In this document: in pieces, positions 12,523-62,943 of the stretch
How positions within the stretch are numbered: the first letter of the stretch is position 1
Layout of the letters: each line of letters begins with the position of its first letter
Origin: Coemansia sp. RSA 487
Taxonomy: Eukaryota > Kickxellomycota > Kickxellomycetes > Kickxellales > Kickxellaceae
Assembly (NCBI GenBank): GCA_027577595.1
Contig: JANBRJ010000043.1
Location: 79,166-143,165 of the forward strand
Length of the DNA stretch: 64,000 nt
Reading direction: 5' to 3'
Position numbers and translations under genes: made by a program
The notes under the pieces: generated by a model
Databases searched by the model: none
Told to the model about the DNA's origin: nothing
The model's input: the letters and a program-made list of their open reading frames with translations, nothing else

Positions 12523-15500
12523 CTACCGTTTCTCTGGCAGAAAAGCCAGCTGCTGAGTCTTGGTTTCGCGGCACGCCTCAATATACGCATTGCGGACGCC
12601 CTTGACCATGCTCCAGGACTTTACTTTCTGTGCCTTGAAGAACATTTCATCCAGGGCCTTGTTGACACCAAGCTTGCACACCTGCGCCGAAGTAACCCAT
12701 TTCCACGACCTAGAACCAACGGGGTTTGTGGGATTGGAGCTGTAGAACCACACAAGCGTGTTGCAGTCGTCGGACTGCTTGTCCTCGTGCACTCCCTCTG
12801 GAATATCGGGCATTTGCGGGTCGCAGATCGCGGCAGGAAACCATGGAAACGATGTCATTTTTGCCCACACTGGCGTCCCAATCGCGTACTGCGACGAATC
12901 TTCGCCTAAAAATGCAGCTGTGGGCAACGCAATGCCATTGCTGTACCGCCGCTGCGAAGCACTCGTGTCCGGGGTAGCTACTTTCTTTAGTTTCTTCTGT
13001 GGTGTGTTTTTCTCGCTGCGAGCAGCAGCAGAAGACCGCTTTGTGGGAGTCACAGGAATTGTTGTTAGCGGAACCGTAGCCATGCTGGTACGACGCAGCC
13101 GGGACTTGATCACATTGACATCGTCAGGGATGTCGTCGTCGGGCAGCGGCGTGTTCGGGTGCAAGAAGGCATACCGTCCACGCAGTTGCTGGCGCACATC
13201 GGGCGGGGGTATAGACATTTGCTCGAATAGCGTGAGCTGTCTGCTGCTGCTGCTGCTGCTGCTGGGGCCTTGTGTTTTGCGTCGATTTGCCACCGCCTTC
13301 TTTTGGCCCTCGGGTGCTCTAAGCCTGGGCTTCCGTGGCTCGCTGGCTGGTGGCTCCCGGTTGGCTGGTACGGGCTTCTTCTTGGGAGTAGTGCTGGTTT
13401 TGTCATTCTTGCTTCGTTTGAGCTTCTCTGCTGCTGTCCCTGTTTTCTTGCCTTCTGCGCTGCGAGTTTTGGCGCTTTCGCTGACTGCCTCTGTGGGCCC
13501 CTTGGCTGCCTTGCTGTCTTTGGGTGTGCCTTTTCCTTTTGCCTGCTTACTCGCATCGATATCGGCATCAGCATCGGTCACTACACCCGCTGAGGGCTGG
13601 TTGTGCCGAGAGGAGCGGGTCATGGGTGCCGTCGCTGGTGTGCTGCTAGGAGCAGCAGGCTTCGCAGGGGTTAGCCCTGTCTCAGGAGTCTTCTCCGCAA
13701 CCTCCGTACCATCGCCACTGGCATTCTTCGCTTCGCTGTTAACGGAAGATGGGATTCCGCCGTCCAGCTCAAAGATACCCATGTCAACATCGACCAGAAG
13801 CCGACCGGATTCGGGATCAATTGGCATAGCGCTTATCCTTTCCTTGGCTTCGGCCACCAGCCGCTCAACATGTCGTTTGATACGCGTGGCCAGCTGGTAG
13901 TAGTACGTCGTGGGCTTATTGTATATCATGCAGTTGGCAATGACCAAGTTGAGGTGGCGCTCGACTTCGTCCACGGACCTGTACTTGTGCTCGCGTATGT
14001 TTTGTCGAATGGTTCTAAAGTCCATAGGCTCCTTGATGACGTCAAAATAGTCGGGTGCATCATCCAGCGTCACCGGGTAGCTGAGGACACCGCGAGGGTC
14101 GCGTCGTTCGATAAGCTCATCGACCATATCCAACAACACAGGGTTCAAGGGATCAAAGACTTTGCGCAAGTACTCGACCAGAAGCCGTGCGCTTTTGAGC
14201 TTCTCGCGCTCCCTCCTGCGCACGCTCTCGACCAACAGGCGCACGCGCTCGAGATCTGTCCGGATCCGACGCAAAGCCATTTGTCTCTGCTCCTCAGCCA
14301 TCTCTATTTCTCTCTGCTGTGTGACCGAGGCCGTCCAGGGCTCCAAATGTAAGCGCTTGAGAAGCGGAACACCGTACCGCGTGAACCGTTTGAGCGCCCA
14401 GTACCGCGCGATTTGGCTAACCAGGTGGATTCGCTGGTTGGCACCAATGCGGTTTGCCGGCACAGCCGTTTCTACAACCTTGGCAAACACGTACTCATTC
14501 AGAACGGGACGGCCTGGATTGAATATGCGCATCGTCAGCTGCAGCGACGCATCCTCGCTGGCCTTGTACTTTCCAGATCCCAATGGGTCCCCGCCTGCTG
14601 CAGCTTCCATAGTGGCTGCAGTCGCTTGGTCGAACAGCGCGGCCACTTCTTCTGTTGGGTGTGCCAGCAAATCCACCGATGTCGCCGGCCACCACTGACC
14701 ACCACTGCCATTGGCAGCCTGCCCGCTGCTGGCGCCATCGCCAGCCCCATGGAGTATCGACACAAGGTCGGACGAGAGCAGCGATAGTGCGGCGGCAGCT
14801 GTAGGAGTGGACGATGATCCTCCAACAGGAGGGTTCTTGCGCCGGGTGTTGCCCAGGAACTTGAGCGGAGCCGACAGATCGATCTTCTGCGTATGCGTGG
14901 GCAGCGAATGGCGCTCACAGAATGGGCGGCGCACGGGTTCTCCTGTGCGCCTATCTAGCTTCTCAACCATCGAGAAATGCGCTTTGCGTGCGCACGTTAC
15001 GTGGAATGCGGTACAGCACTGGCGGTGTGAACACTGGATGCACGCGCCGACCTTGCGGCGACATAGGTGGCAGCAGAGCTTCCAGCGCGACCTGGGGATC
15101 TGGTCGACGCTGTCGATGGGCTCCATATACGTAGTGTTGGAGATCCCGACCTCGGGGATCCACAGCGCGCACAGAAGATGCACCCACTTATTGGTGGTTG
15201 TTTTCTTGAATGCCCCACCGCGCTGAGGACATAGGATGCATGCAACCTCCTTGTCTGGAGACAGCATGCAGCTGCGACACAGCCACTGGCCCTCCGGGAT
15301 GTACGGCACGCCGTAGCAATCCTGATGCACAGCCAGATTGCATCCGTCGCAATACACAATGACGTTGGCGTTGTCGCACTCCTCTTCGTTGCAGATCGCA
15401 CACGCAGACTCATCGGTTGGCAGCTGCTTTTGGTGGATTGCAGAGATCGCGCGCTGTGCTTCCTTGACAAGCTCAAACCACTCCTTCTCCATGTGGTCGA

Positions 15501-17295
15501 TGATACGCTCCAGCATATTGGCCGAGATCTCCACCGACCCTTGCGCCGCGCGGCTCTCGTTGAGTCGCTGCAGCCAGAGGCGGTCGGCGTCCTCCAGGTC
15601 GTACTCGATGCGCTCGGCCAGATCCTTCTCGGTCAGCTCGATGTTACGGATGTAATGGCCTTCCGGTCGCTTGAACTCGGCAGGTCTGTATCCGAGATTC
15701 GCCGCATTGCCCTCGATCTGCCTGAACCGGGTCTCTTTCAGCGAGAGCACCGGGTTCTTTGGCGCAAGAACCACTACTGACGATTGCGGCGTGCCGGCGT
15801 ATGATGCCGTTGATTTGCCCGGCCCAGGCGACCTCAGCACCAAAGATGATGGACCCTGGAACGGGTCTATCCCTAGGTACGCGGGAAGTGATGCGGTATG
15901 GTGCCGGTTGTTGATTGCTGCTGCCTCGGGGTCGTTGAACACAAGCTTGATCGACAGGCCGCTCGAGCTGCGCGATGGCTGCGGCAGCCGGTCGCCCAAT
16001 CCGTTGCTTTCGTTGTTGTTTGCGGCCTTTGTGTCGCCATTAGATGCGCTGCTAAGATCCTGCAGCGGGGTTTCTGAAGCCGCAGATAACGGTGGTATCG
16101 ACGACAATGACGTCAAGGGCGCCGAGGATGCGGCAGACAGAGACTGGTTTATGGTGTCTTCAGCCGACGATGCTGTAAGCGGAAGCTGCTGCTGTGTTTG
16201 TTGTGTGCCAGGCGACAATGTGGTTGATGATGGCGAGTCGACTGTGGTTCCATGGAACCTTATTTCCATAGGCGTAAAGACATTGAAGTCAGGGAAGAAC
16301 TCCTTGTAGCTGCGCTCCTCGCGCGGCTTATCGATGATCGGCGGGGGAGAGATGGGCGTTTCTTGCGGCAGAAAGAGCTGTTTCCTGGATTGCGAGCGTG
16401 GCGGCGCCGGCGAAGAAAGGGCTTCTCCCGCTGGCACCAGTCCACCACCAGAGATAGATGCAATAAGCGATGGCGCAACCCTTTTGCGTCCTGATGAGCC
16501 AGCTTCGGCTCTGTGTGCCAGCCTCACGGCACTTCTTGAGGGCGTATCAATCTTCATAGACAAGTAGTCGTCGCTGTTGTTGGCGTTGAGGTCTGGCGAG
16601 TCTGGGGGCATCTGGTTCCGCAGCGACGAGTGTCTGTGCACGTTATCCGCACGTCCTTTCCGCAACCGCCGCGAAACAGATGTTGTTGGACTCGACGCGT
16701 ACCCCTTCTGGTCGACAGCTGCACCGTCAAACAAGCTGCCGATATCGCGCAGCCCATGCGTTACGCGTCGCCGACGCGTCGTGCGCTCGGGTGTTATTTT
16801 GGGCGACCCATTCTCACCGCTGCTGTTTGATGGTTCGTGCTGGTCGCGCAGCCGCAAGCTTTGCCGCAGCCTCTGATGCAGCGGATAGCGCGAGGGCGTG
16901 TCTGGCTCGTTGTCCCTGCTGCTACTTAGTCGCATAGACGTGCGGCGGCGCGTATGGCGTGGGGCTGGGCTATTTGATTCGCTTGAAAATTCCAACTGCC
17001 TTTCTTCCTCCTCTTCTTCTAGATCGCTTCCCGATGATGTTTGCACAAACTCTTCGTCACCTTCGTCGGCAGTGTCAACCACTATTTCTTGGCCGCCCAT
17101 CTCGGCATCGCTGCTCCGTGTCTCGTTGTCGGCTGTCGATTGCAGCAAATGGTGTGATGCTGCTTCTATCGCAGCCCTGTGCCCCTCGTTTGTTCTCTGT
17201 TTGCTCTGTTTGCGACGGCTTCTCCTCTCTGTGTTGTCGTAATCGCTGGAACTCGATAATGTCCGTGCGATGCCTCGTGCTGGCGTATGTCCCAT
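12523..17295 (-). CDS. NTO1: BRPF/Nto1-type chromatin reader (PHD-zinc knuckle-ePHD, bromodomain, PWWP)
   Basis: An uninterrupted 1,590-aa frame. A long disordered, basic N-terminus is followed by an EPL1-like segment (about residues 519-570, RFRQIEGNAANLGYRP) that in this family contacts the MYST acetyltransferase. A PHD finger starts at about 632 (CAICNEEECDNANVIVYCDG), then the zinc knuckle and extended PHD (to about 800, ending CTAFHVTCARKAH). A bromodomain lies at about 1,050-1,146 with the acetyl-lysine Asn in CMIYNKPTTYYY, and a PWWP domain at the C-terminus (about 1,469-1,590, SFPWFPAAICDP). BRPF proteins scaffold MYST/HBO1-type complexes (NuA3 in yeast) that acetylate H3. Budding-yeast Nto1 lacks the bromodomain and PWWP, so this protein has the animal-like full architecture. 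A polySer tract and Pro/Lys-rich linkers separate the domains. The ATG at 17,295 is the first in frame. Confidence 0.95.
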   Translation of the reverse strand: MGHTPARGIARTLSSSSDYDNTERRSRRKQSKQRTNEGHRAAIEAASHHLLQSTADNETRSSDAEMGGQEIVVDTADEGDEEFVQTSSGSDLEEEEEERQLEFSSESNSPAPRHTRRRTSMRLSSSRDNEPDTPSRYPLHQRLRQSLRLRDQHEPSNSSGENGSPKITPERTTRRRRVTHGLRDIGSLFDGAAVDQKGYASSPTTSVSRRLRKGRADNVHRHSSLRNQMPPDSPDLNANNSDDYLSMKIDTPSRSAVRLAHRAEAGSSGRKRVAPSLIASISGGGLVPAGEALSSPAPPRSQSRKQLFLPQETPISPPPIIDKPREERSYKEFFPDFNVFTPMEIRFHGTTVDSPSSTTLSPGTQQTQQQLPLTASSAEDTINQSLSAASSAPLTSLSSIPPLSAASETPLQDLSSASNGDTKAANNNESNGLGDRLPQPSRSSSGLSIKLVFNDPEAAAINNRHHTASLPAYLGIDPFQGPSSLVLRSPGPGKSTASYAGTPQSSVVVLAPKNPVLSLKETRFRQIEGNAANLGYRPAEFKRPEGHYIRNIELTEKDLAERIEYDLEDADRLWLQRLNESRAAQGSVEISANMLERIIDHMEKEWFELVKEAQRAISAIHQKQLPTDESACAICNEEECDNANVIVYCDGCNLAVHQDCYGVPYIPEGQWLCRSCMLSPDKEVACILCPQRGGAFKKTTTNKWVHLLCALWIPEVGISNTTYMEPIDSVDQIPRSRWKLCCHLCRRKVGACIQCSHRQCCTAFHVTCARKAHFSMVEKLDRRTGEPVRRPFCERHSLPTHTQKIDLSAPLKFLGNTRRKNPPVGGSSSTPTAAAALSLLSSDLVSILHGAGDGASSGQAANGSGGQWWPATSVDLLAHPTEEVAALFDQATAATMEAAAGGDPLGSGKYKASEDASLQLTMRIFNPGRPVLNEYVFAKVVETAVPANRIGANQRIHLVSQIARYWALKRFTRYGVPLLKRLHLEPWTASVTQQREIEMAEEQRQMALRRIRTDLERVRLLVESVRRREREKLKSARLLVEYLRKVFDPLNPVLLDMVDELIERRDPRGVLSYPVTLDDAPDYFDVIKEPMDFRTIRQNIREHKYRSVDEVERHLNLVIANCMIYNKPTTYYYQLATRIKRHVERLVAEAKERISAMPIDPESGRLLVDVDMGIFELDGGIPSSVNSEAKNASGDGTEVAEKTPETGLTPAKPAAPSSTPATAPMTRSSRHNQPSAGVVTDADADIDASKQAKGKGTPKDSKAAKGPTEAVSESAKTRSAEGKKTGTAAEKLKRSKNDKTSTTPKKKPVPANREPPASEPRKPRLRAPEGQKKAVANRRKTQGPSSSSSSSRQLTLFEQMSIPPPDVRQQLRGRYAFLHPNTPLPDDDIPDDVNVIKSRLRRTSMATVPLTTIPVTPTKRSSAAARSEKNTPQKKLKKVATPDTSASQRRYSNGIALPTAAFLGEDSSQYAIGTPVWAKMTSFPWFPAAICDPQMPDIPEGVHEDKQSDDCNTLVWFYSSNPTNPVGSRSWKWVTSAQVCKLGVNKALDEMFFKAQKVKSWSMVKGVRNAYIEACRETKTQQLAFLPEKR

Positions 17296-33205: not shown

Positions 33206-33277
33206 TCTCCGATAGTATAGTGGCGAGTACGCCAGTCTGTCACATTGGCGACCCGGGTTCAATTCCCGGTCGGAGAG
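33206..33277 (+). tRNA. tRNA-Asp(GTC), copy 1
   Basis: 72 nt with acceptor TCTCCGA pairing TCGGAGA and discriminator G. The anticodon loop is CTGTCAC (anticodon GTC) on a CCAGT/ATTGG stem. The T arm is CCGGG-TTCAATT-CCCGG, which also serves as the B box. A T6 run follows as the Pol III terminator. No intron. Confidence 0.97.
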
Positions 33278-33490
33278 CTTTTTTCTTTTATTTGGTGATT
33301 TTTTAGCTTTCAGCAATTGCTATGCAGACAGGAGGCACGGGCGATTACTGATTAATTTTCAATGGAGGCGGAATTGCCAACCATTGAACAATCTGTTCAT
33401 TTTTAGCTTCATCCATGTGAAAAGATAAGATTCAGTGTTTTTTTTATCAGAAATTACAATTTATTGTCAAGATTTATAATAATAAAAAAG

Positions 33491-33562
33491 CTCTCCGACC
33501 GGGAATTGAACCCGGGTCGCCAATGTGACAGACTGGCGTACTCGCCACTATACTATCGGAGA
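33491..33562 (-). tRNA. tRNA-Asp(GTC), copy 2, inverted
   Basis: Identical 72-nt sequence to copy 1 on the opposite strand, again followed by six T residues. It is part of the inverted duplication. Confidence 0.97.
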
Positions 33563-33839: not shown

Positions 33840-36148
33840 TTAGACACATAGGCGCTTGTTTTGTAGATTTTCCTTGTCCACATTATCTTTATCTGATTGC
33901 TTGCGTTTAGGCAAAGACGATTTTCTCCCAGCTTCTGTCACAGTAGTGGTATCATCGTTGCTTTCAGGAAGCATCAGCTGCAACGCAACTTGATCCACGA
34001 ACCTTTTTGCATACTCCCTGCACAGTTCACGCCTAAAGTTCTTCTTGTACAGTAGCTTGCCTCCAATGTATCGGCCGTCCTTTGTGAATAGGAAACAGTA
34101 CATCGCATCTAGCACTCTGCGCAACGCTTTGTTAACGCCACCAATTTCAACACCAAACGAGTCATAAAAATGGCCTCGTTCTGAAAGATATCCAACGCGA
34201 GCCCACGCAAAGTCATGACTATCGAAACACTTGAACCCTCTAGGCTCCTCTTCAGTACGGTTGGATAGTACATGCAGAATGACATAGAACAGTGATTCTA
34301 AATCGTGAATAAGCCCACGCTCTTTGTCGCTGACAAGCATTTGTATGCTTATGTACTGCGGTGTACCCGTCAACATATCGTAGTTTGCTTCCATTTGAAT
34401 GATCAATTCTGGGTCCAAGTGCCACTTTCGCAGAGCTGCCTCGTTTCTCTTCATGACTCCAGCATTGTCTGGCTTTACGACTTTCGCGTAACCCCAATCA
34501 ATCACAGATGCGTTGCCCTGAGAGCTGATTGCGATGTTCCCTGATGAAATGTCACGATGGAATACTCCAGCAGCCTGCGCATGGATCAAACACGAAGATA
34601 CTTGGGCAATGTGTTTTGACACAAGCCCAGACGCCTTTGAGGCCTGCCCGTTCTCGTAACGCGCCTGACCGAAATTCATTATTGTATCCCCGCAATCCTC
34701 CATGATAATGTATTCGAATCGGTATCCAAAGACATCCTTCTTCAGTATACCGCTGTCAAGCACTTTCGGTGTGTTCGGGACATTCGCTTTGGTCAATATC
34801 TCGTAAACCGCTCCTTCTGTTAGTCTACCAATCGGAGTCCACGTCAGTTTTATGATAGCAGCTGTTTTGCCTTTACCATACATTGTTTTAACAATGAAAG
34901 CGAGGCGTCCGACAATGCGCGCCCTCGTACATACCGGCGTCTTGGTAAAAGGTATTTCTCCTGAATCGTTTAAAGTTGCGCTAGCAACAAGAACGATGTC
35001 ATCAGTTTCCTTTTTGAATTCGATGAACCGCACATACTTGGGGATTTCGCAGCACTGTCCGAATCTATTCGACGGCAGAGTCAGAAGAAACCAGAGATCT
35101 TGCAATGTCATGCATATACTTTCCATTGCAACATCATCAACTGCATTGTCGGCCAGGATATATGTGTCATAGCATATCATCCCAACTTCTACACGAATAA
35201 CTCCTTTGCGTGTAAACACGAATAGTGAGATGTTGCAGCCGTGCAAAAAGAATATCGGGACAAATGTACGCATGGGCTGCTTTTCCCAAATAGGCAAGGC
35301 ATAGTCCGCGATTTGGCCAAGTACAGACTCGGGCAACTCGGCTTCCGGATACTCGTCGGTTTTAGCTTCCAGAACTGTATGAACAAACTCGAATCCATCA
35401 CGTTTGTTGTGATAATAGAACATAATTTCTGATTTCTGCCGTGTACCGGGAATATGCTTGGTTTGATGACCAACTACCATACAATTGGGGGTTCGAAGGC
35501 TTGGTGGCCTTTCGGTTCCAGTCTGCAACAACCACGCTTTTACAACAGTGACCATCTCTTTCCACAGCCTGCGGAAATAGTCTGTCAGCGCGATTTCGCC
35601 AATTTGCCTAGGACCGACAAGACTCTTGCCATCAGGTCGAGCAGTAATCCTTTTGTCTACGAGTGACGGCGCACGTCTTGCTATATCCCCAAATATACCG
35701 TCTACTGACTTGCAAAAAGCCGTATGTTCCTTCAAGATGCCTAAGGATGAAAGTAAATTGGCGAAGTTCATCTTCACAGCGCGACCCTTTAGTTGCTTAG
35801 CAAGGTCAGAGTGCCTTTCAGCCAGTTTTTGGTTCATCTCATTAGTTACTGAAATCCCAGTGCCATATTTTCGCACTATCGGAGTTGACCTCATGCTGCT
35901 GCTCATTGCGGGCTATATAGGAGTTAAAATATATTTAAAATAAAAGCTAGTTTATATATTGGTAACAATTTCATCACCTTACAAATGCAATATGTAGTTG
36001 GGTTTTAATTTACCTCTTGGTTGGCGTGTACTACAGACTGCTGTCCAACGCCTCCTCTGGATACGCCCAAAACAAGGTCAACCGGAGAGACCAGGCCTTT
36101 CGCCGCTTTAGATCTTCTGGTGGGAGTTATTGCACTATTTGAGGTCAT
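33840..36148 (-). CDS. FunK1-type fungal protein kinase (two exons)
   Basis: Exon 1 is 36014-36148 and exon 2 is 33840-35912. The 101-base intron starts GTAAAT and ends CTATATAG and joins in phase 0, giving 735 aa (MTSNSAITPTRRSKAAKG at the start). Without it the frame would begin at an internal ATG (35,906). The kinase core shows the catalytic loop FHRDISSGNI, VIDWGYAK in place of DFG, and the family block TGTPQYIS followed by HDLESLFYVI, all marks of FunK1. The N-terminal ~350 residues are the beta-rich region common to this family (TVLEAK, then GVIRVEVGMI). The C-terminal tail is basic and Ser-rich. FunK1 kinases are fungal and expanded in some lineages; their substrates are mostly unknown. 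Confidence 0.9.
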
Positions 36149-52175: not shown

Positions 52176-52429
52176 CTTTTTTCTCTCCTTATTTGCTGAT
52201 CGCGTAATCGAGTGATTAATTGAGTTTATATATTTTTTGTTGGAAGTCAAATTTTTTTTTTTTCGCTTGCTGATCTTTAAAGGGCGATAACTGTAGAGCT
52301 TTTTTCTGTTTCTACTTTCTCTTCATTTTCAGTTATCCTTGCTGTTGGTGTTTATATTTCTATATCGCTATAGAGCTTTACTTTTTCTTTCAAACAATCA
52401 AAAAGGGAATAGAAAAGGAACAGGTAGTG

Positions 52430-55400
52430 ATGGCGCCTTCAGGGTTTAGAACGCTTGAGCGACAAAGGGCGGCTGTGGTGCCAGGGCAAGAGCCTGAGTA
52501 TCCGATGATGCAAAACCTCACAGCGCCTCACATCGAGTCGTTTAACACGATCTGGGAAGCGGCAGGTCCCAGCACGCCGTCACTTGTGGACTTGGCGATG
52601 GATTTGCTAGGCAAGCAAACAGTGTTTGACGGTAAAGGTAATGCGGACCAGCCGTACGGCAACAAAATAACGTACTGGGTGACGGGATTACGATTGGACC
52701 ATCCGTCGGTTTCTGCCCGTGAAACCAAGTCGAAGAGCCGACTAATGTACCCTACCGAATGCCGCCAAAGAGCAGTAACGTATCGCGGGCGTTTATCGGG
52801 AACGCTGCATTACAAAGTGAACGACAACCCGGAGATCACGGAGGAGCGCAATTTCGGACAGTTGCCCGTGATGGTTCGATCCAATAGGTGCAATCTGCAG
52901 AACATGAGCCCTGCACAGCTGATCGAGCAGCATGAAGAGCCCGAGGAAATGGGTGGCTACTTCATTGTCAACGGAAACGAAAAAGTGATCCGTCTACTGA
53001 TTGCGCAGCGCAGGAACCATGTGCTTGCGATCCAAAGACCATCGTATGCGAACCGTGGTCCGGGATTCACTCCCTATGCTGCGCAAATCAGATGCGTTCG
53101 CAAAGACCAAACGTCGCAAACCCTAACGATGCATTACTTGGCCACGGGCAATCTGCTGATTCGATTCGCTATCCGGAAGCAAGAGTACATGGTGCCTGTA
53201 TCACTTCTGATGCGTGCGCTGGTGGGTGCCAGCGATAAGGAAGTGTTCGAGGCCATCGTGGGTGGTGATGCTGAAAACATTTTCGTGCGCGACCGTGTCG
53301 AATTGCTTTTGCGGTCGAGCAAGCAGTATGCGGTGTACACGCGGGAGCAAGCGCTTGCTTACCTGGGCGACAAGTTCCGCATAGTCATGTACGCCGCAGA
53401 CGATGCAAGTAATGCGGACATCGGACGTCTTCTGTTGCACCGCCTTGTGATGGTGCACTTGGAGAGCGATCGGGACAAGTTCAACATGCTGGCGCATATG
53501 GTACGCAAGCTGTACGCTTCGATCAGTGGCGAATGCCAGGAAGACAACCCGGACGCGCAGCAGATGCAGGAGGTGTACTTGCCTGGCCACCTGTACCTGG
53601 GAATCATCAAGGAAAAGATTGACGACTATCTGATGGGCATACGTCAGGAGATCGCCAAGGATATACGAACCCAGAAGGTCGATTTCTACAGCAACAGGTA
53701 CTTGGCACGCCTGTTTGCCCGTGTCACCGTGGATGTTGGCCAGAAGGCGCAGTACTTTTTGGCCACAGGTAACTTGGTCAGCAAGTCGGGGCTCGATATG
53801 CAGCAAGTTTCTGGGTACACGATTATTGCCGAGAAACTCAACTTCCTCAGGTACTTGTCGCATTTCAGGTGCATCCATCGAGGAGCGTTCTTTGCCGAGC
53901 TCAAAACCACGGGTGTGCGGAAGCTTCTTCCTGAGGCGTGGGGCTTCCTGTGCCCCGTGCACACGCCAGACGGTTCCCCGTGTGGTCTGCTGAACCATTT
54001 GGCGCACAAGTGCCTATTGTCGACGGTGGTTGAGGACACCGATGACGTGGAGCGTGTGCTGGTGCGGCTGGGCGTGCAGCCAGGGCTGCCGACCCCCGCT
54101 GTACGTGATGCGCGGCTGCTTACGGTGCAGCTAGACGGGCGGATCGTCGGATATTGTAGCCAAGCGGTTGCGGCGCAGGCAGCAGAGACACTAAGGATCC
54201 TCAAGCTCAAGGCATTCCAGTCACGTGGGCACGCTGGGGTGGCCAACATCCCGTACAACATGGAGATCGGGTTTGTTCCCGAATCGCACGGTGGCCAGCT
54301 CCCCGGTCTGTATCTGTTCACGACACCTGCGCGCTTCGTGCGACCCGTCACGCACTTGGCGACGCGACTGGAGGACCACGTTGGTAGCTTCGAGCAAGTG
54401 TACATGGATATTGCGTGCCTTGACGAGGATGTGCGTGTGGGCGTAACGACGCACCAGGAGGTGCTGCCTACGCACATATTGTCTGTGGTGGCTAACTTTA
54501 CTCCGTTCTGCGACTTCAACCAGTCGCCGCGGAACATGTATCAGTGCTTGACGGTGGACCACGATGTGCTTACAGCCTCTGGATGGAAGCCAATCGCCCG
54601 AGTCACAGCATCCGACCAGGTGATGACCATGAACCTGGAGTCCGGTGCGCAGGAGTGGAACAGGGTGCAGAGAGTTGCAAAGGTGGCGCATGCGGGTCCG
54701 CTGTTCCGGCTTAAGAGCGACCGCGTCGATGCGGTGTGCGACGCTGCGCATCGCTGGTACCTTAACACCAAGGATGCGCCTGATAGGTTTTCCAGCTGGA
54801 CGACCGAGGACATGACTACTGGACGTTTAGAAGCGCCGAAAGGCGAAGCAAGCAACAGCCAATGGGAGCGCAAGGGCACAGACACGGTTCACACGAACCA
54901 TGCGATCCCTGCAGTCGGCCGCAACGCCAACGGTCTGTATGCGTGGCCCGAGTTCTCTTCGTGGCTTCCTGCTGCTGCCAACCTCGACTGGTGCCGCTTC
55001 ATCGGGCTGGTTGTTGGCGACTATGTTCAGATCACCCGCGACTCGGAAGCACATAGTTGCGTTGTGCGGATTTCCAGGGATGATAAGCTAGCTACGACTT
55101 TGGCTCTGCTTGGCCGACTTGCCGGAGCTATCCCTGGTTTCAGCGAGCGTGCTGCTGCGTCGGAGGGAAAGACGGTTTGGGCCATTGACGGCACAGAGGT
55201 ATACGACTTTTTCCAGCCGATGCTCGAGGGCCCACCCTCGTTTGACCCATGTGACGAGGCACAGAGCCGCGAGTACGACCAAGCCCTCCACCGCGCACTC
55301 GCTAGCGAAGGGTTGGCCGACGGCAGCAAGCGTGCAAATGGCGCGAGGGGCCAACGCCGCTGGATGCATTATGAGTGGCTGACAAAGCTGAGCGTCTCCC

Positions 55401-57223
55401 AGGCCCGTGCTGTCATCGAGGGTCTGTCGTCCAGCGACAGTGCCACTACAGGATCCATCCCTCTGGTTCACGATCTCTCGATTCTTGGGCTTATGGCGGA
55501 CTCCAGGGCCAGCATCGAGGCAAGCCGCACAGGAGAAGGGGACGACCCTAAGGGCCAAACAACTTGGCGCATATCGTTTTCGTTTGCCCCCAGCGAGCAA
55601 ACCATTGCGGTGCCGCAGCCCGCGGTCTACGAGAACCCACATCACGACGGGTTTGTTTACTGTCTGGAGGTAGCCAACAATGAGAACTTTATGGCTCGAC
55701 GCAGGCACGTGGACTGCAGCACAATGCAGGATGCAGGGTTCTTCACAGGAAACTGCCAAATGGGCAAGCAGACGATGGGTACGCCAATGCAGTCGTTCCC
55801 GTACCGCACAGACAACAAGCTGTACCGCCTGCAAACGGGGCAGACGCCGATCTGCCGGCCCCGCATCTACGACGACTACGGAGTGGACGGGTACCCGAAC
55901 GGCGCCAACGCCGTGGTGGCGGTTATCTCGTACACCGGCTACGATATGGAGGACGCGATGATTCTGAACAAGAGCGCATACGAGCGCGGGTTCGGGTATG
56001 GGTCGATCTACAAGACGGAATACATTGATCTAGGCAAGTTCCGGAAATCGGGCGACGTTGTGACGACGCACTTCGGACTGGGCCGCGACGTCCTTTCGAA
56101 CACCGACGTCACCGAGCGCATCGACATGGACGGCTTGCCGTTCACCGGGCTGCGTGTCGAGGAAGGCGACCCGCTTTACGCTGTCATTGACGATGTGCGG
56201 GCGCGCACCCGCGTGCACATGTACAAGGGCGAGGCCGGGTACGTTGAAACCGTGCGGCTCCTGTCGACGGGTCCCGACTCGGAGCTGCAGCTGGTGGCGC
56301 TGACGTTCCGCATCCCGCGGTCGCCTATCATTGGCGACAAGTTCTCTTCGAGACACGGGCAGAAGGGCGTGTGCTCGGTCAAGTTCCCGGCAGTCGACAT
56401 GCCGTTTACCGAGACCGGAATGCAGCCCGATGTCATCATCAACCCACATGCATTCCCGTCGCGCATGACTATCGGAATGTTTGTCGAGTCCATTGCCGCC
56501 AAGGCCGGCGCGCTGCACGGCGTGTGCCAGGACTCGACTCCGTTCCAGTTCGACGAGACGCACACAGCGGCCGACTACTTTGGCGAGCAGCTGCGTAAGG
56601 CCGGGTACAACTACCATGGCAGCGAGCCCATGTACTCTGGAGTTGCAGGAACCGAAATGCGTGCCGACATATACATTGGCGTCGTGTACTACCAGAGGCT
56701 GCGGCACATGGTGAGCGACAAGTACCAGGTGCGCACCACAGGACCCATCAACCCGCTGACGATGCAGCCGATCAAGGGCCGCAAGCGTGGCGGCGGCATC
56801 CGTCTGGGCGAAATGGAGCGCGATGCGCTGATTGCGCACGGCGCCGCGTACTTTTTGCAGGACCGCCTGATGAACTGCTCCGACTACTCGTTGGCATATG
56901 CATGCCGCTCGTGCGGCTCCATCCTGGCGCCCATCGCTGTGCCTGCCGCGTCGCATACCGTAGACCTGCGCGCTCCTGCTGATAGCGCAAACCGCGCCCC
57001 GATGTTTGCTGGCCTTTCGGCTGCTGAGGCCCGTGCTATCATGGCGGCTGCGTCGGCGGACGGCGCGTCCCGCCGTGTTTCCGGCAAAGGCCCACTGGAC
57101 CTGCAGTGCCGCCTGTGCCAGAACGCAGAAGCCATCACCATGGTTGCGCTGCCGTTCGTGTTCCGCTACTTGGCAACCGAGCTGATGTCCATGAACATGA
57201 AGGTCACTCTGGACGTCAAGTAA
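52430..57223 (+). CDS. RPA2: RNA polymerase I second-largest subunit (Rpa2/Rpa135) with in-frame intein
   Basis: The ATG at 52,430 gives a 1,597-aa precursor (a GTG one codon upstream is not used). Removing the intein (residues 706-1108) leaves 1,194 aa, the usual Rpa135 size. Family marks are GGYFIVNGNEKVIRLLIAQR, WGFLCPVHTPDGSPCG, CDFNQSPRNMYQ joined to CQMGKQTMGTP, YDMEDAMILNKSAYERGFGYG and GDKFSSRHGQKG. A C-terminal zinc site is given by CRSC and CRLC. The GYFIVNGNEKVIRLL and SPRNMYQ-CQMGKQ forms separate Pol I from Pol II and III subunits. With Rpa1 it forms the active centre that makes the large rRNA precursor in the nucleolus. The C-terminal zinc region contains an Ala-rich insertion of about 50 residues. 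No intron is seen; since the subunit is essential, the intein presumably splices. Confidence 0.96.
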   Translation: MAPSGFRTLERQRAAVVPGQEPEYPMMQNLTAPHIESFNTIWEAAGPSTPSLVDLAMDLLGKQTVFDGKGNADQPYGNKITYWVTGLRLDHPSVSARETKSKSRLMYPTECRQRAVTYRGRLSGTLHYKVNDNPEITEERNFGQLPVMVRSNRCNLQNMSPAQLIEQHEEPEEMGGYFIVNGNEKVIRLLIAQRRNHVLAIQRPSYANRGPGFTPYAAQIRCVRKDQTSQTLTMHYLATGNLLIRFAIRKQEYMVPVSLLMRALVGASDKEVFEAIVGGDAENIFVRDRVELLLRSSKQYAVYTREQALAYLGDKFRIVMYAADDASNADIGRLLLHRLVMVHLESDRDKFNMLAHMVRKLYASISGECQEDNPDAQQMQEVYLPGHLYLGIIKEKIDDYLMGIRQEIAKDIRTQKVDFYSNRYLARLFARVTVDVGQKAQYFLATGNLVSKSGLDMQQVSGYTIIAEKLNFLRYLSHFRCIHRGAFFAELKTTGVRKLLPEAWGFLCPVHTPDGSPCGLLNHLAHKCLLSTVVEDTDDVERVLVRLGVQPGLPTPAVRDARLLTVQLDGRIVGYCSQAVAAQAAETLRILKLKAFQSRGHAGVANIPYNMEIGFVPESHGGQLPGLYLFTTPARFVRPVTHLATRLEDHVGSFEQVYMDIACLDEDVRVGVTTHQEVLPTHILSVVANFTPFCDFNQSPRNMYQCLTVDHDVLTASGWKPIARVTASDQVMTMNLESGAQEWNRVQRVAKVAHAGPLFRLKSDRVDAVCDAAHRWYLNTKDAPDRFSSWTTEDMTTGRLEAPKGEASNSQWERKGTDTVHTNHAIPAVGRNANGLYAWPEFSSWLPAAANLDWCRFIGLVVGDYVQITRDSEAHSCVVRISRDDKLATTLALLGRLAGAIPGFSERAAASEGKTVWAIDGTEVYDFFQPMLEGPPSFDPCDEAQSREYDQALHRALASEGLADGSKRANGARGQRRWMHYEWLTKLSVSQARAVIEGLSSSDSATTGSIPLVHDLSILGLMADSRASIEASRTGEGDDPKGQTTWRISFSFAPSEQTIAVPQPAVYENPHHDGFVYCLEVANNENFMARRRHVDCSTMQDAGFFTGNCQMGKQTMGTPMQSFPYRTDNKLYRLQTGQTPICRPRIYDDYGVDGYPNGANAVVAVISYTGYDMEDAMILNKSAYERGFGYGSIYKTEYIDLGKFRKSGDVVTTHFGLGRDVLSNTDVTERIDMDGLPFTGLRVEEGDPLYAVIDDVRARTRVHMYKGEAGYVETVRLLSTGPDSELQLVALTFRIPRSPIIGDKFSSRHGQKGVCSVKFPAVDMPFTETGMQPDVIINPHAFPSRMTIGMFVESIAAKAGALHGVCQDSTPFQFDETHTAADYFGEQLRKAGYNYHGSEPMYSGVAGTEMRADIYIGVVYYQRLRHMVSDKYQVRTTGPINPLTMQPIKGRKRGGGIRLGEMERDALIAHGAAYFLQDRLMNCSDYSLAYACRSCGSILAPIAVPAASHTVDLRAPADSANRAPMFAGLSAAEARAIMAAASADGASRRVSGKGPLDLQCRLCQNAEAITMVALPFVFRYLATELMSMNMKVTLDVK
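54545..55753 (+). mobile_element. Intein (403 aa) with LAGLIDADG homing-endonuclease region, in RPA2
   Basis: In-frame insertion between Gln and Cys of the conserved extein NMYQ^CQMGKQ. Block A is CLTVDHDVLTASGWKPI with catalytic Cys1. Block B is VCDAAHRWYL with its His at intein residue 69. An endonuclease region follows: motif 1 FIGLVVGDY (Asp at about 159) and motif 2 VIEGLSSSDSATTG (Asp at about 298). Block F is FVYCLEVANNENFMA (about 370-384), and the C-terminal Asn precedes Cys+1 of the extein. Both LAGLIDADG copies keep the Asp but lack the following Gly. The penultimate residue is Gly, not His, and about 20 extra residues lie between block F and the end. There is no GT-AG boundary that would make it an intron. 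It is a protein-splicing element and probable former homing element. Confidence 0.94.
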
Positions 57224-61212: not shown

Positions 61213-62943
61213 AAAACGGACATCAACCCCAGCGACGCCGACGATGACACGAGAGTTGACCTTGTCTTGAGAACGCGCAGGGCTGGATGCCAAGTCAAGC
61301 TGCAGCCGAACCCTAGTTATGCTGGGACGTTTTGTGTAACTGAGATCAAGAGCAATCCGAGCACAAAGGATCTGAACGACACACGCGTGCAACTTTTCGA
61401 CTATTCACAAAACATCTATGCTAGCCAGCATGACCGGCGCTTCGTGTGGGGGCTCACGTTCTGTGGTGAATCAGTCAGTGCATACATTCTTAGCAACTGC
61501 CGAGAATATTCCTCGCCAGTGATAGACATAACAGATGTTATTGAGCGCAAAGAGCTTATCTACCTTCTCGTCGGTTGGTCGCTGTGCAGAAAAGGGCAGC
61601 TGGGTTTTGACGAGACGATCGTACTGTGTTCAGACATAAAGTGCTATGAAATCCACGTCCCATCGGGAAATGATCCTGGGATATCAATCCCGTATTGCTT
61701 GACGGATGTTATAATGGTTTCTGACAGGCTGTTTGGTTGCTACTGCCGCTGCTTTCTGGCCACGCCAAGAAGACCCCCGAAGTGCCAGTCTCAGTGGAAA
61801 ATCCGATCGTGTTCTCTGTCGTCAAAAAATTCTTGGATGGTCTGTGGTACATCGGAAGACGATGAAAATACTAATTTGGAAGCTGACGTGAAAGGACTTC
61901 GTATTGATGACGACATTGAGTCTTCATTTGTTTGGCCGTCGGCACAGCTTGCGCTTGATACGCTCGTCGACACTGGCGAGGTACTCAGCGAGATAAACAT
62001 TCTAGACAAGATCAACAAAGTTCTCGGCAGCAATACCGATTATAACGGACTGTATCCGACGCAGCTGAACGGCGGGTGGGTTCATCAACCATTGCATACC
62101 AGGCAAGTTCTTGACTGCACTCGCGAGATCTTGTTTGGACTTGAAAACGAGCAGAAAGGAAAAACGCCATTTTGTTTCCATGTCCGCTACGCAATGGAGC
62201 TGATTGGTGAACCGCTTAAACCCTCCATGTCTGCCTCTGAGCTCATCGTCGTTCTCTGCAATGCCATGCGTTGCCACAAGGCGATTAGCGACGAATGCAC
62301 TATATTTCATAGAGATGTTTTGGAAAACAATATTCTGGTTGTTCGGAATGGCAGCGGTGTCTATGGCTTACTTATTGACTTCAACTTTGCACTCGACCAA
62401 TCGGCGGGAAAACCTCCTGGGCGTCTCAAACAAACTGGCACGTTACCATTTATGAATATCGGCAGTCTAGCCAACTCAGAGATCCCACGCACGATGCTAG
62501 ACGATTGGGAGTCGCTGCTATACCTAGTGTGCTGGTATGGTACGTTTGAAATTAGCGAGAATTGCGAGGACCAGAACTTCAGGCATCGCATCAACCGGTG
62601 GTGTGTTGGCTGTGAGGAAGAAATAGCTGATCAAAAGCGCTCAGATCTTATCACTGTTGGAAACTTCTATGGCTGCACTGCTAGAGATTTTGGCAAGCGT
62701 GACAGCAACATCGGCGACGGTGAGCGTTTAAAGACGTTAGCTGTTCATTTGCACAAGTATATGTTCTTTAACCTTAGGTTTGGTCCTGCCCTGAGTATTC
62801 CATGTCACGGAACACAGATTAATAGCGAAAACGGTATAACCTCGATGCTTGACGACGATGATGGATACGATGGTAGCGACATATCCCCAATGAATAACCC
62901 CGAGAACATGGAGAATCCCTCTAAACCTATTGACCTGGTTTAA
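61213..62943 (+). CDS. FunK1-like fungal protein kinase, 5' end unresolved
   Basis: Open frame of 576 codons after a TGA, without an ATG in its first part. The kinase core has FHRDVLENNILVV (catalytic HRD and Asn) and LLIDFNFALDQ (DF without Gly, as is common in FunK1). TGTLPFMNIGSL and then LDDWESLLYLVCW is the FunK1 TGT...D-x-ES-L-Y-L block. The N-lobe part is TREILFGLENEQ to HVRYAMELIGEPLKP. The N-terminal region begins DADDDTRVDLVLRTR. Just upstream, in the +1 frame, DECGLVLPFEKR looks like its continuation, so a one-base frameshift or unrecognised splice near 61,215 is possible. The C-terminal tail is acidic. It could be a functional multi-exon gene or a pseudogene. It is only distantly similar to the FunK1 at 33.8-36.1 kb. 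Confidence 0.75.
   Translation, partial: KTDINPSDADDDTRVDLVLRTRRAGCQVKLQPNPSYAGTFCVTEIKSNPSTKDLNDTRVQLFDYSQNIYASQHDRRFVWGLTFCGESVSAYILSNCREYSSPVIDITDVIERKELIYLLVGWSLCRKGQLGFDETIVLCSDIKCYEIHVPSGNDPGISIPYCLTDVIMVSDRLFGCYCRCFLATPRRPPKCQSQWKIRSCSLSSKNSWMVCGTSEDDENTNLEADVKGLRIDDDIESSFVWPSAQLALDTLVDTGEVLSEINILDKINKVLGSNTDYNGLYPTQLNGGWVHQPLHTRQVLDCTREILFGLENEQKGKTPFCFHVRYAMELIGEPLKPSMSASELIVVLCNAMRCHKAISDECTIFHRDVLENNILVVRNGSGVYGLLIDFNFALDQSAGKPPGRLKQTGTLPFMNIGSLANSEIPRTMLDDWESLLYLVCWYGTFEISENCEDQNFRHRINRWCVGCEEEIADQKRSDLITVGNFYGCTARDFGKRDSNIGDGERLKTLAVHLHKYMFFNLRFGPALSIPCHGTQINSENGITSMLDDDDGYDGSDISPMNNPENMENPSKPIDLV

Follow-up and report, generated by a model that had tools for sequence, protein, structure and literature searches.

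A putative intein in a fungal RNA polymerase I subunit RPA2 carries a class 1 nucleophile within a class 3-like active site

The closest described counterpart of the insert reported here is the Pno RPA2 intein of Phaeosphaeria nodorum, allele RPA2-a, published by Goodwin et al. in 2006 (PMC1635734). According to that paper, the intein interrupts the second-largest subunit of RNA polymerase I (Pol I), comprises 455/456 amino acids, starts with Cys1, ends in Gly-Asn before a Cys+1, and lies in the hybrid-binding domain; its column in the alignment is 1195, which places it after the fork sites (843 and 853) and before the viral site (1516). The same source describes RPB2-a, RPB2-b, RPB2-c and RPC2-a, which like our insert are nuclear inteins of second-largest subunits but which occupy paralogous subunits and other alignment sites (PMC1635734). 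An open-literature search found an RPA2 intein named only in PMC1635734, and later lists may name the gene; PMC5784728 counts 21 nuclear RNA polymerase inteins by fungal group, with RPA and RPB2 absent from its main text. Because this kind of intein has been known since 2006, its presence in a further RPA2 gene is by itself no great surprise.

A second point of comparison is provided by the class 3 inteins, which are described as having no nucleophile at position 1 (PMC5222942, PMC7664689, PMC5050341) and, in the account given in PMC6195587, generally lack the threonine of block B. The class 3 intein Msm DnaBi1, as presented there, combines a DxxH motif in block B with the WCT triplet (W at B:12, C at F:4 and T at G:5) and with a terminal Asn that is preceded by His (PMC6195587). 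Functionally characterised class 3 inteins with either Gly or Asp at the position of the block B Thr are mentioned in PMC7891396.

The window, that is the whole 64-kb stretch of DNA analysed here, contains a stop-free plus-strand ORF of 1598 codons (52427-57223) that encodes the exteins and the insert in one frame. The GTG listed as start at 52427 is mechanical; translation probably begins at the following codon, an ATG at 52430. Pfam recognized six RNA polymerase domains in the ORF, including the RPA2-specific PF06883, and its three best solved chains in the PDB were the Pol I RPA2 subunits 7aoc, 4c2m and 7ob9, which we take to be those of fission yeast, budding yeast and human, respectively. 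The best of them, 7aoc, aligned with residues 6-707 of the ORF protein, ending at the C of NMYQC, and the alignment restarted at CQMGKQ (residues 1110-1598) after a gap of 403 residues. When the short flanks were used as queries, NMYQ and CQMGKQ were found at adjoining chain positions in 7aoc, 4c2m and 7ob9; these three chains are therefore without the insert. Since the extein alignments are continuous across the junction, the insert can be assigned, exact to the base, to positions 54545-55753 (plus strand): 1209 bases or 403 in-frame codons, reaching from Cys1 to Gly-Asn and splitting NMYQ^CQMGKQ. The N-extein, delimited by the ORF, the solved-chain alignments and PF06883, extends from the likely ATG to NMYQ (52430-54544, plus strand), and the C-extein, delimited by the ORF and the same alignments, begins with the Cys+1 of CQMGKQ (55754-57220, plus strand; stop codon at 57221-57223). 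Counted from the ATG, the precursor has 1597 residues and the joined RPA2 1194, against 1174 in 7aoc and 1203 in 4c2m. An earlier, sequence-only reading of this DNA had proposed precisely this insertion and an RPA2 of normal length without it, and both proposals were borne out by the alignments to the three chains and by these lengths.

The insert displays Cys1, Hint blocks A, B, F and G, a LAGLIDADG region, a Gly-Asn end and a following Cys+1, and thus the combination by which inteins are recognized: a nucleophile at position 1 (C1), a terminal Asn (N403) and C, S or T at position +1 (C+1). The anatomy previously suggested for it, with Cys1, blocks A, B and F, two LAGLIDADG-like motifs, a terminal Asn and Cys+1, stood up and could be extended by block G, except that block B reads DxxH instead of TxxH and that the second LAGLIDADG motif has no Gly and is followed by a shortened stretch. 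In a tblastn search of 50,697 phage records, 84 records matched the insert at E<=1 (best 1e-6), and among the matches listed 57 of 60 began at its residue 1; one match lay inside a DNA polymerase, and the annotation of that record has an intein beginning one codon after the match. IMG/VR scans seeded by the phage matches yielded 43 loci, 29 of which were used in an alignment of relatives (A6); a 30-sequence alignment that includes the insert (A7) underlies all counts of relatives given below (n=29). Aligned to the A6 profile with hhalign, the insert scored 105.5 (98.4%) over residues 1-78, a value to be read with the reservation that the relatives behind the profile and the structure model were gathered outwards from the insert, so that the two tests are not fully independent. 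The best of 100 shuffled sequences scored 26.1 (5.0%) and the reversed insert 19.4 (0.7%); these controls rule out a chance Hint match. Of 1469 frames searched in the window, only the insert matched the profile strongly (E 6e-16, N-terminal part); its C-terminal part alone matched weakly (E 0.11, with another frame of the window at 0.046) and did so at the expected place.

No curated Pfam or NCBIfam model reached its cut-off with the insert; Intein_splicing remained below threshold at E 0.032, and an intein C-terminal model scored 15.2 bits where its cut-off is 15.6. At E<=0.01, the Pfam model Intein_splicing also matches only five of the 29 phage inteins in A6. A PDB sequence search with the insert returned nothing significant: the best hit was a nanobody (E 0.32), followed by the RecA intein in seven of the nine sequences listed (E 0.44-0.62).

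Structure prediction was consistent with the profile results. With the insert sequence as sole input, the AlphaFold2 model was uninformative (mean pLDDT 36); with alignment A7 the mean pLDDT was 64, with block means of 84-96 for residues 1-70, 84-93 for residues 361-390 and 70-87 for residues 271-350; residues 71-270 were of low confidence (block means <=61). The well-modelled stretches 1-70 and 361-390 are the two ends predicted to form the Hint domain. A Foldseek search of the PDB with this model retrieved 14 chains at E<=0.001, every one an intein or the intein-like BIL2 domain, among them VMA inteins, PI-PfuI, intein endonuclease II and PI-SceI. Whole-chain TM-scores were low (0.43 for the best match), and the matches to small Hint domains spanned about 85 columns at 1.9 A. 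Sequence and predicted structure together identify the insert as a real intein. The proposal of a nuclear RPA2 intein that interrupts NMYQ^C, for which the absence of a Hint match had been named as the result that would count against it, is supported by a Hint match found by profile (hhalign 98.4%) as well as by predicted structure.

We consider it highly probable that the insert is a full-length nuclear RPA2 intein that splices out of the 1597-residue precursor to leave a Pol I subunit of 1194 residues. Its anatomy and insertion point can be read directly from the DNA, and the Hint fold is indicated by profile and prediction. The intein would be translated within the precursor, fold as a Hint domain, cut itself out and join Gln to Cys+1; the first attack may come from Cys1, as in class 1, or from C373 of block F, as in class 3, and the insert carries both residues. 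If this is the sole RPA2 gene, splicing must work, because the polymerase could hardly keep so conserved a block interrupted. Pol I makes rRNA; with no second RPA2 copy to assume the task, rRNA synthesis would depend on protein splicing, and without splicing the supply of new Pol I, and eventually of ribosomes, would cease.

The relatives found were phage inteins (A6 and loci L057-L061), whose blocks A, B, F and G can be aligned to those of the insert, with approximately 21-38% identity in the tblastn pieces. They differ from the insert in their hosts and in their host proteins, which by annotation are DNA polymerase, DNA methylase, terminase and portal protein. Loci L010, L012 and L013, together with those in A6, form a phage intein family with Cys1 and, in most members, the WCT residues and TGN ends; a near-identical copy of L012 (L060) is held by a Gordonia phage portal protein. 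In plasmids the insert matched one record, whose annotation includes an intein homing endonuclease (E 0.03), and in PHROGs there was one weak match (E 0.1, residues 1-72). The insert matched 14 stretches of viral contigs and 13 of genome contigs from bacteria and archaea, and no relative was confirmed among them; viral contigs queried with the C-extein or with the L002 intein yielded none either.

The residues C1, H69 of block B, C373 at F:4, and the final G402 and N403 are common to the insert and all 29 relatives. Cys1, the predicted class 1 nucleophile at the start of block A, is encoded at 54545-54547, and the block B region (residues 58-73, 54716-54763), placed by alignment A7, includes D66 (54740-54742), H69 (54749-54751) and W71 (54755-54757). 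Block F, FVYCLEVANNENFMARR, covers residues 370-386 (55652-55702) with C373 at 55661-55663, and block G (55745-55753) comprises T401 at G:5, found in 27 of 29 relatives, before G402 and the terminal N403; all of these features lie on the plus strand. W71 (B:12), C373 (F:4) and T401 (G:5) constitute the WCT triplet of class 3. In the relatives, residue B:7 is T (28/29) or S (1/29), whereas the insert has D66, so that block B reads DAAH in place of TxxH. The TxxH motif is usual for class 1 inteins without strictly defining them. Between blocks F and G the insert furthermore has eight extra residues (387-394, 55703-55726, plus strand), a gap in 29 of 29 relatives. An in-frame GT...AG stretch of 21 bases was observed in and adjoining these extra residues, a length too short for a fungal intron.

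Most relatives (25/29) combine Cys1 and TxxH with the full WCT triplet, and a further one has Ser in place of Thr; WCT alone is therefore no proof of mechanism in this group, in which the insert differs by pairing WCT with DxxH. The position-1 nucleophile of class 1, Cys or Ser, is present as C1, and since class 3 is set apart by having none, the insert is not filed as class 3. As judged from these residues, it is a class 1 nucleophile inside a class 3-like site. The sequence-only reading had recognized Cys1 correctly and had overlooked both the WCT triplet and D66. A 2011 paper by Tori and Perler reportedly addresses, in its title, a widening of the definition of class 3 inteins.

One alternative explanation is that the insert follows class 3 chemistry, with C373 rather than Cys1 attacking the N-terminal junction and forming the first branched intermediate, and Cys1 being a leftover. 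W71, C373 and T401 do co-occur with DxxH in the insert, as W, C, T and DxxH do in Msm DnaBi1, with which it also shares the terminal Asn (after Gly in the insert, after His in DnaBi1); the general lack of the block B Thr in class 3 (PMC6195587), and the Gly or Asp at that position in functionally characterised members (PMC7891396), point the same way. Against this, the insert has the Cys1 that class 3 inteins are described as lacking (PMC5222942, PMC7664689, PMC5050341) and a Cys+1, which in 2016 was known from a single class 3 intein (PMC5222942). The 25 relatives that combine Cys1, TxxH and WCT, with the one that has S, also argue against it, as does the report that a class 1 intein onto which WCT had been grafted showed little or no splicing (PMC7664689). 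We therefore regard class 3 chemistry as a tentative possibility. Unlikely, in our view, is the further proposition that the active site has shifted to the class 3 mechanism, leaving Cys1 as a relic, and so represents a natural step between class 1 and class 3 in an essential eukaryotic gene; a direct step of this kind is itself argued to be improbable in the discussion of PMC7664689. Whichever residue attacks first, a class 1 nucleophile among class 3 residues offers a concrete and testable case for the origin of class 3 splicing, and the phage relatives with Cys1, TxxH and WCT offer a graded series for comparison.

The stretch around the junction is presumably the first part of the hybrid-binding domain. 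From position -35 to position +89 relative to the junction, 7aoc, 4c2m and 7ob9 have a single Cys in common, namely the Cys+1 of NMYQC; the Pno RPA2 intein, which is followed by a Cys, therefore probably sits at the same residue as the insert, a placement reached by elimination from the domain and the shared Cys. Both inteins interrupt the same subunit, and both have Cys1, Gly-Asn and Cys+1 (PMC1635734). They differ in length (455/456 residues in the ascomycete, 403 here) and are compared by description only; the LAGLIDADG region of Pno RPA2 is reported as degenerate (PMC1635734), and that of the insert looks decayed too. Most likely, the P. nodorum intein RPA2-a and the insert are allelic, and the insert is very probably a new member of the RPA2-a kind. 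An arrival independent of the P. nodorum intein, or an insertion at a different residue and hence a new allele, draws on the fact that Pno RPA2 is represented here by its description and that its residue was placed by elimination; the common subunit, the shared Cys1, Gly-Asn and Cys+1, the position in the hybrid-binding domain (PMC1635734) and the single shared Cys that fits near the junction make it rather improbable. The previous suggestion of a notable, perhaps new allele is correspondingly weakened by the 2006 description of an RPA2 intein (PMC1635734) that probably occupies the very residue interrupted here.

The endonuclease region of the insert shows signs of decay. A first LAGLIDADG-like motif, FIGLVVGDYV (residues 152-161, 54998-55027, plus strand), was placed by eye in a part of the model with low confidence, where A7 does not align it with the motif of the relatives. 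The second, VIEGLSSSD (residues 290-298, 55412-55438, plus strand), retains D298, at which the 29 relatives have D in 25 cases, E in three and a gap in one. The acidic residues of both motifs thus remain (D159 by eye, D298 by alignment), and the Gly after D298 is lost; from there to the next helix the insert has five residues, the 28 domain-bearing relatives 10-18. From these features the endonuclease looks decayed and is probably inactive, in which case little or no homing would be left.

This decay, together with Asp in place of the near-invariant block B Thr (T66D) and the eight additional residues that lie between block F and block G, raises the question of a dead or dying insert whose splicing is lost or very poor while another RPA2 copy does the work. 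D66 and the extra residues could indeed make for poor splicing. Yet the exteins and the insert are open across 1598 codons, C1, H69, C373, N403 and Cys+1 are all retained, and Asp occurs at the same place in a working class 3 intein (PMC6195587); we judge a dead insert very improbable. The Gly preceding the terminal Asn is found in all 29 relatives, and a phage intein with this arrangement is reported to splice (PMC5050341). A splicing intein remains the favoured reading.

That the insert is a spliceosomal intron or an assembly artefact has nothing in its favour except the bare fact that a eukaryotic gene contains an insert, and is practically negligible given its intein homology, its open frame of 403 codons, and its ends in the four registers that restore NMYQCQMGKQ (TG-AC, GC-CT, CT-TG and TT-GC), the absence of a GT-AG register ruling out a spliceosomal intron. 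The frame of the insert contains no stop, compared with 10 and 14 in the other forward frames (10, 14, 2, 8 and 17 in all five others), and its codon preference resembles that of the exteins most in its own frame (0.051, against at most 0.018 in the other five). A chance open frame was ruled out by a first-order Markov simulation, in which none of 20,000 sequences stayed open.

A scan for the block NQSPRN[T/M/I]YQC in viral contigs (three loci) and genome contigs (seven loci) revealed an intein at this place in none of the ten. At two of them, L051 and L053, a polymerase gene has the site unoccupied; the remaining eight look like chance matches. L051 (1924-1950) and L053 (4269-4295) encode eukaryote- or virus-type second-largest polymerase subunits with an uninterrupted NTYQC or NMYQC; the contigs that carry them are assigned to a Rhodobiaceae and a Leptolyngbya MAG and are probably contaminants.

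Elsewhere in the window, an uninterrupted ORF of 1590 amino acids on the minus strand (12523-17295) combines EPL1, PHD, bromodomain and PWWP domains and is, we assume, BRPF-like. This ORF and the other long uninterrupted ORFs of the window presumably point to an early-diverging fungus. A fungal host is also indicated by two ORFs that match the fungal kinase family PF17667, at 33840-35906 (minus strand) and 61267-62943 (plus strand), with E values of 1.7e-22 and 1.3e-43. Two tRNA-Asp(GTC) genes, at 33206-33278 (plus strand) and 33490-33562 (minus strand), run in opposite directions approximately 210 bases apart.
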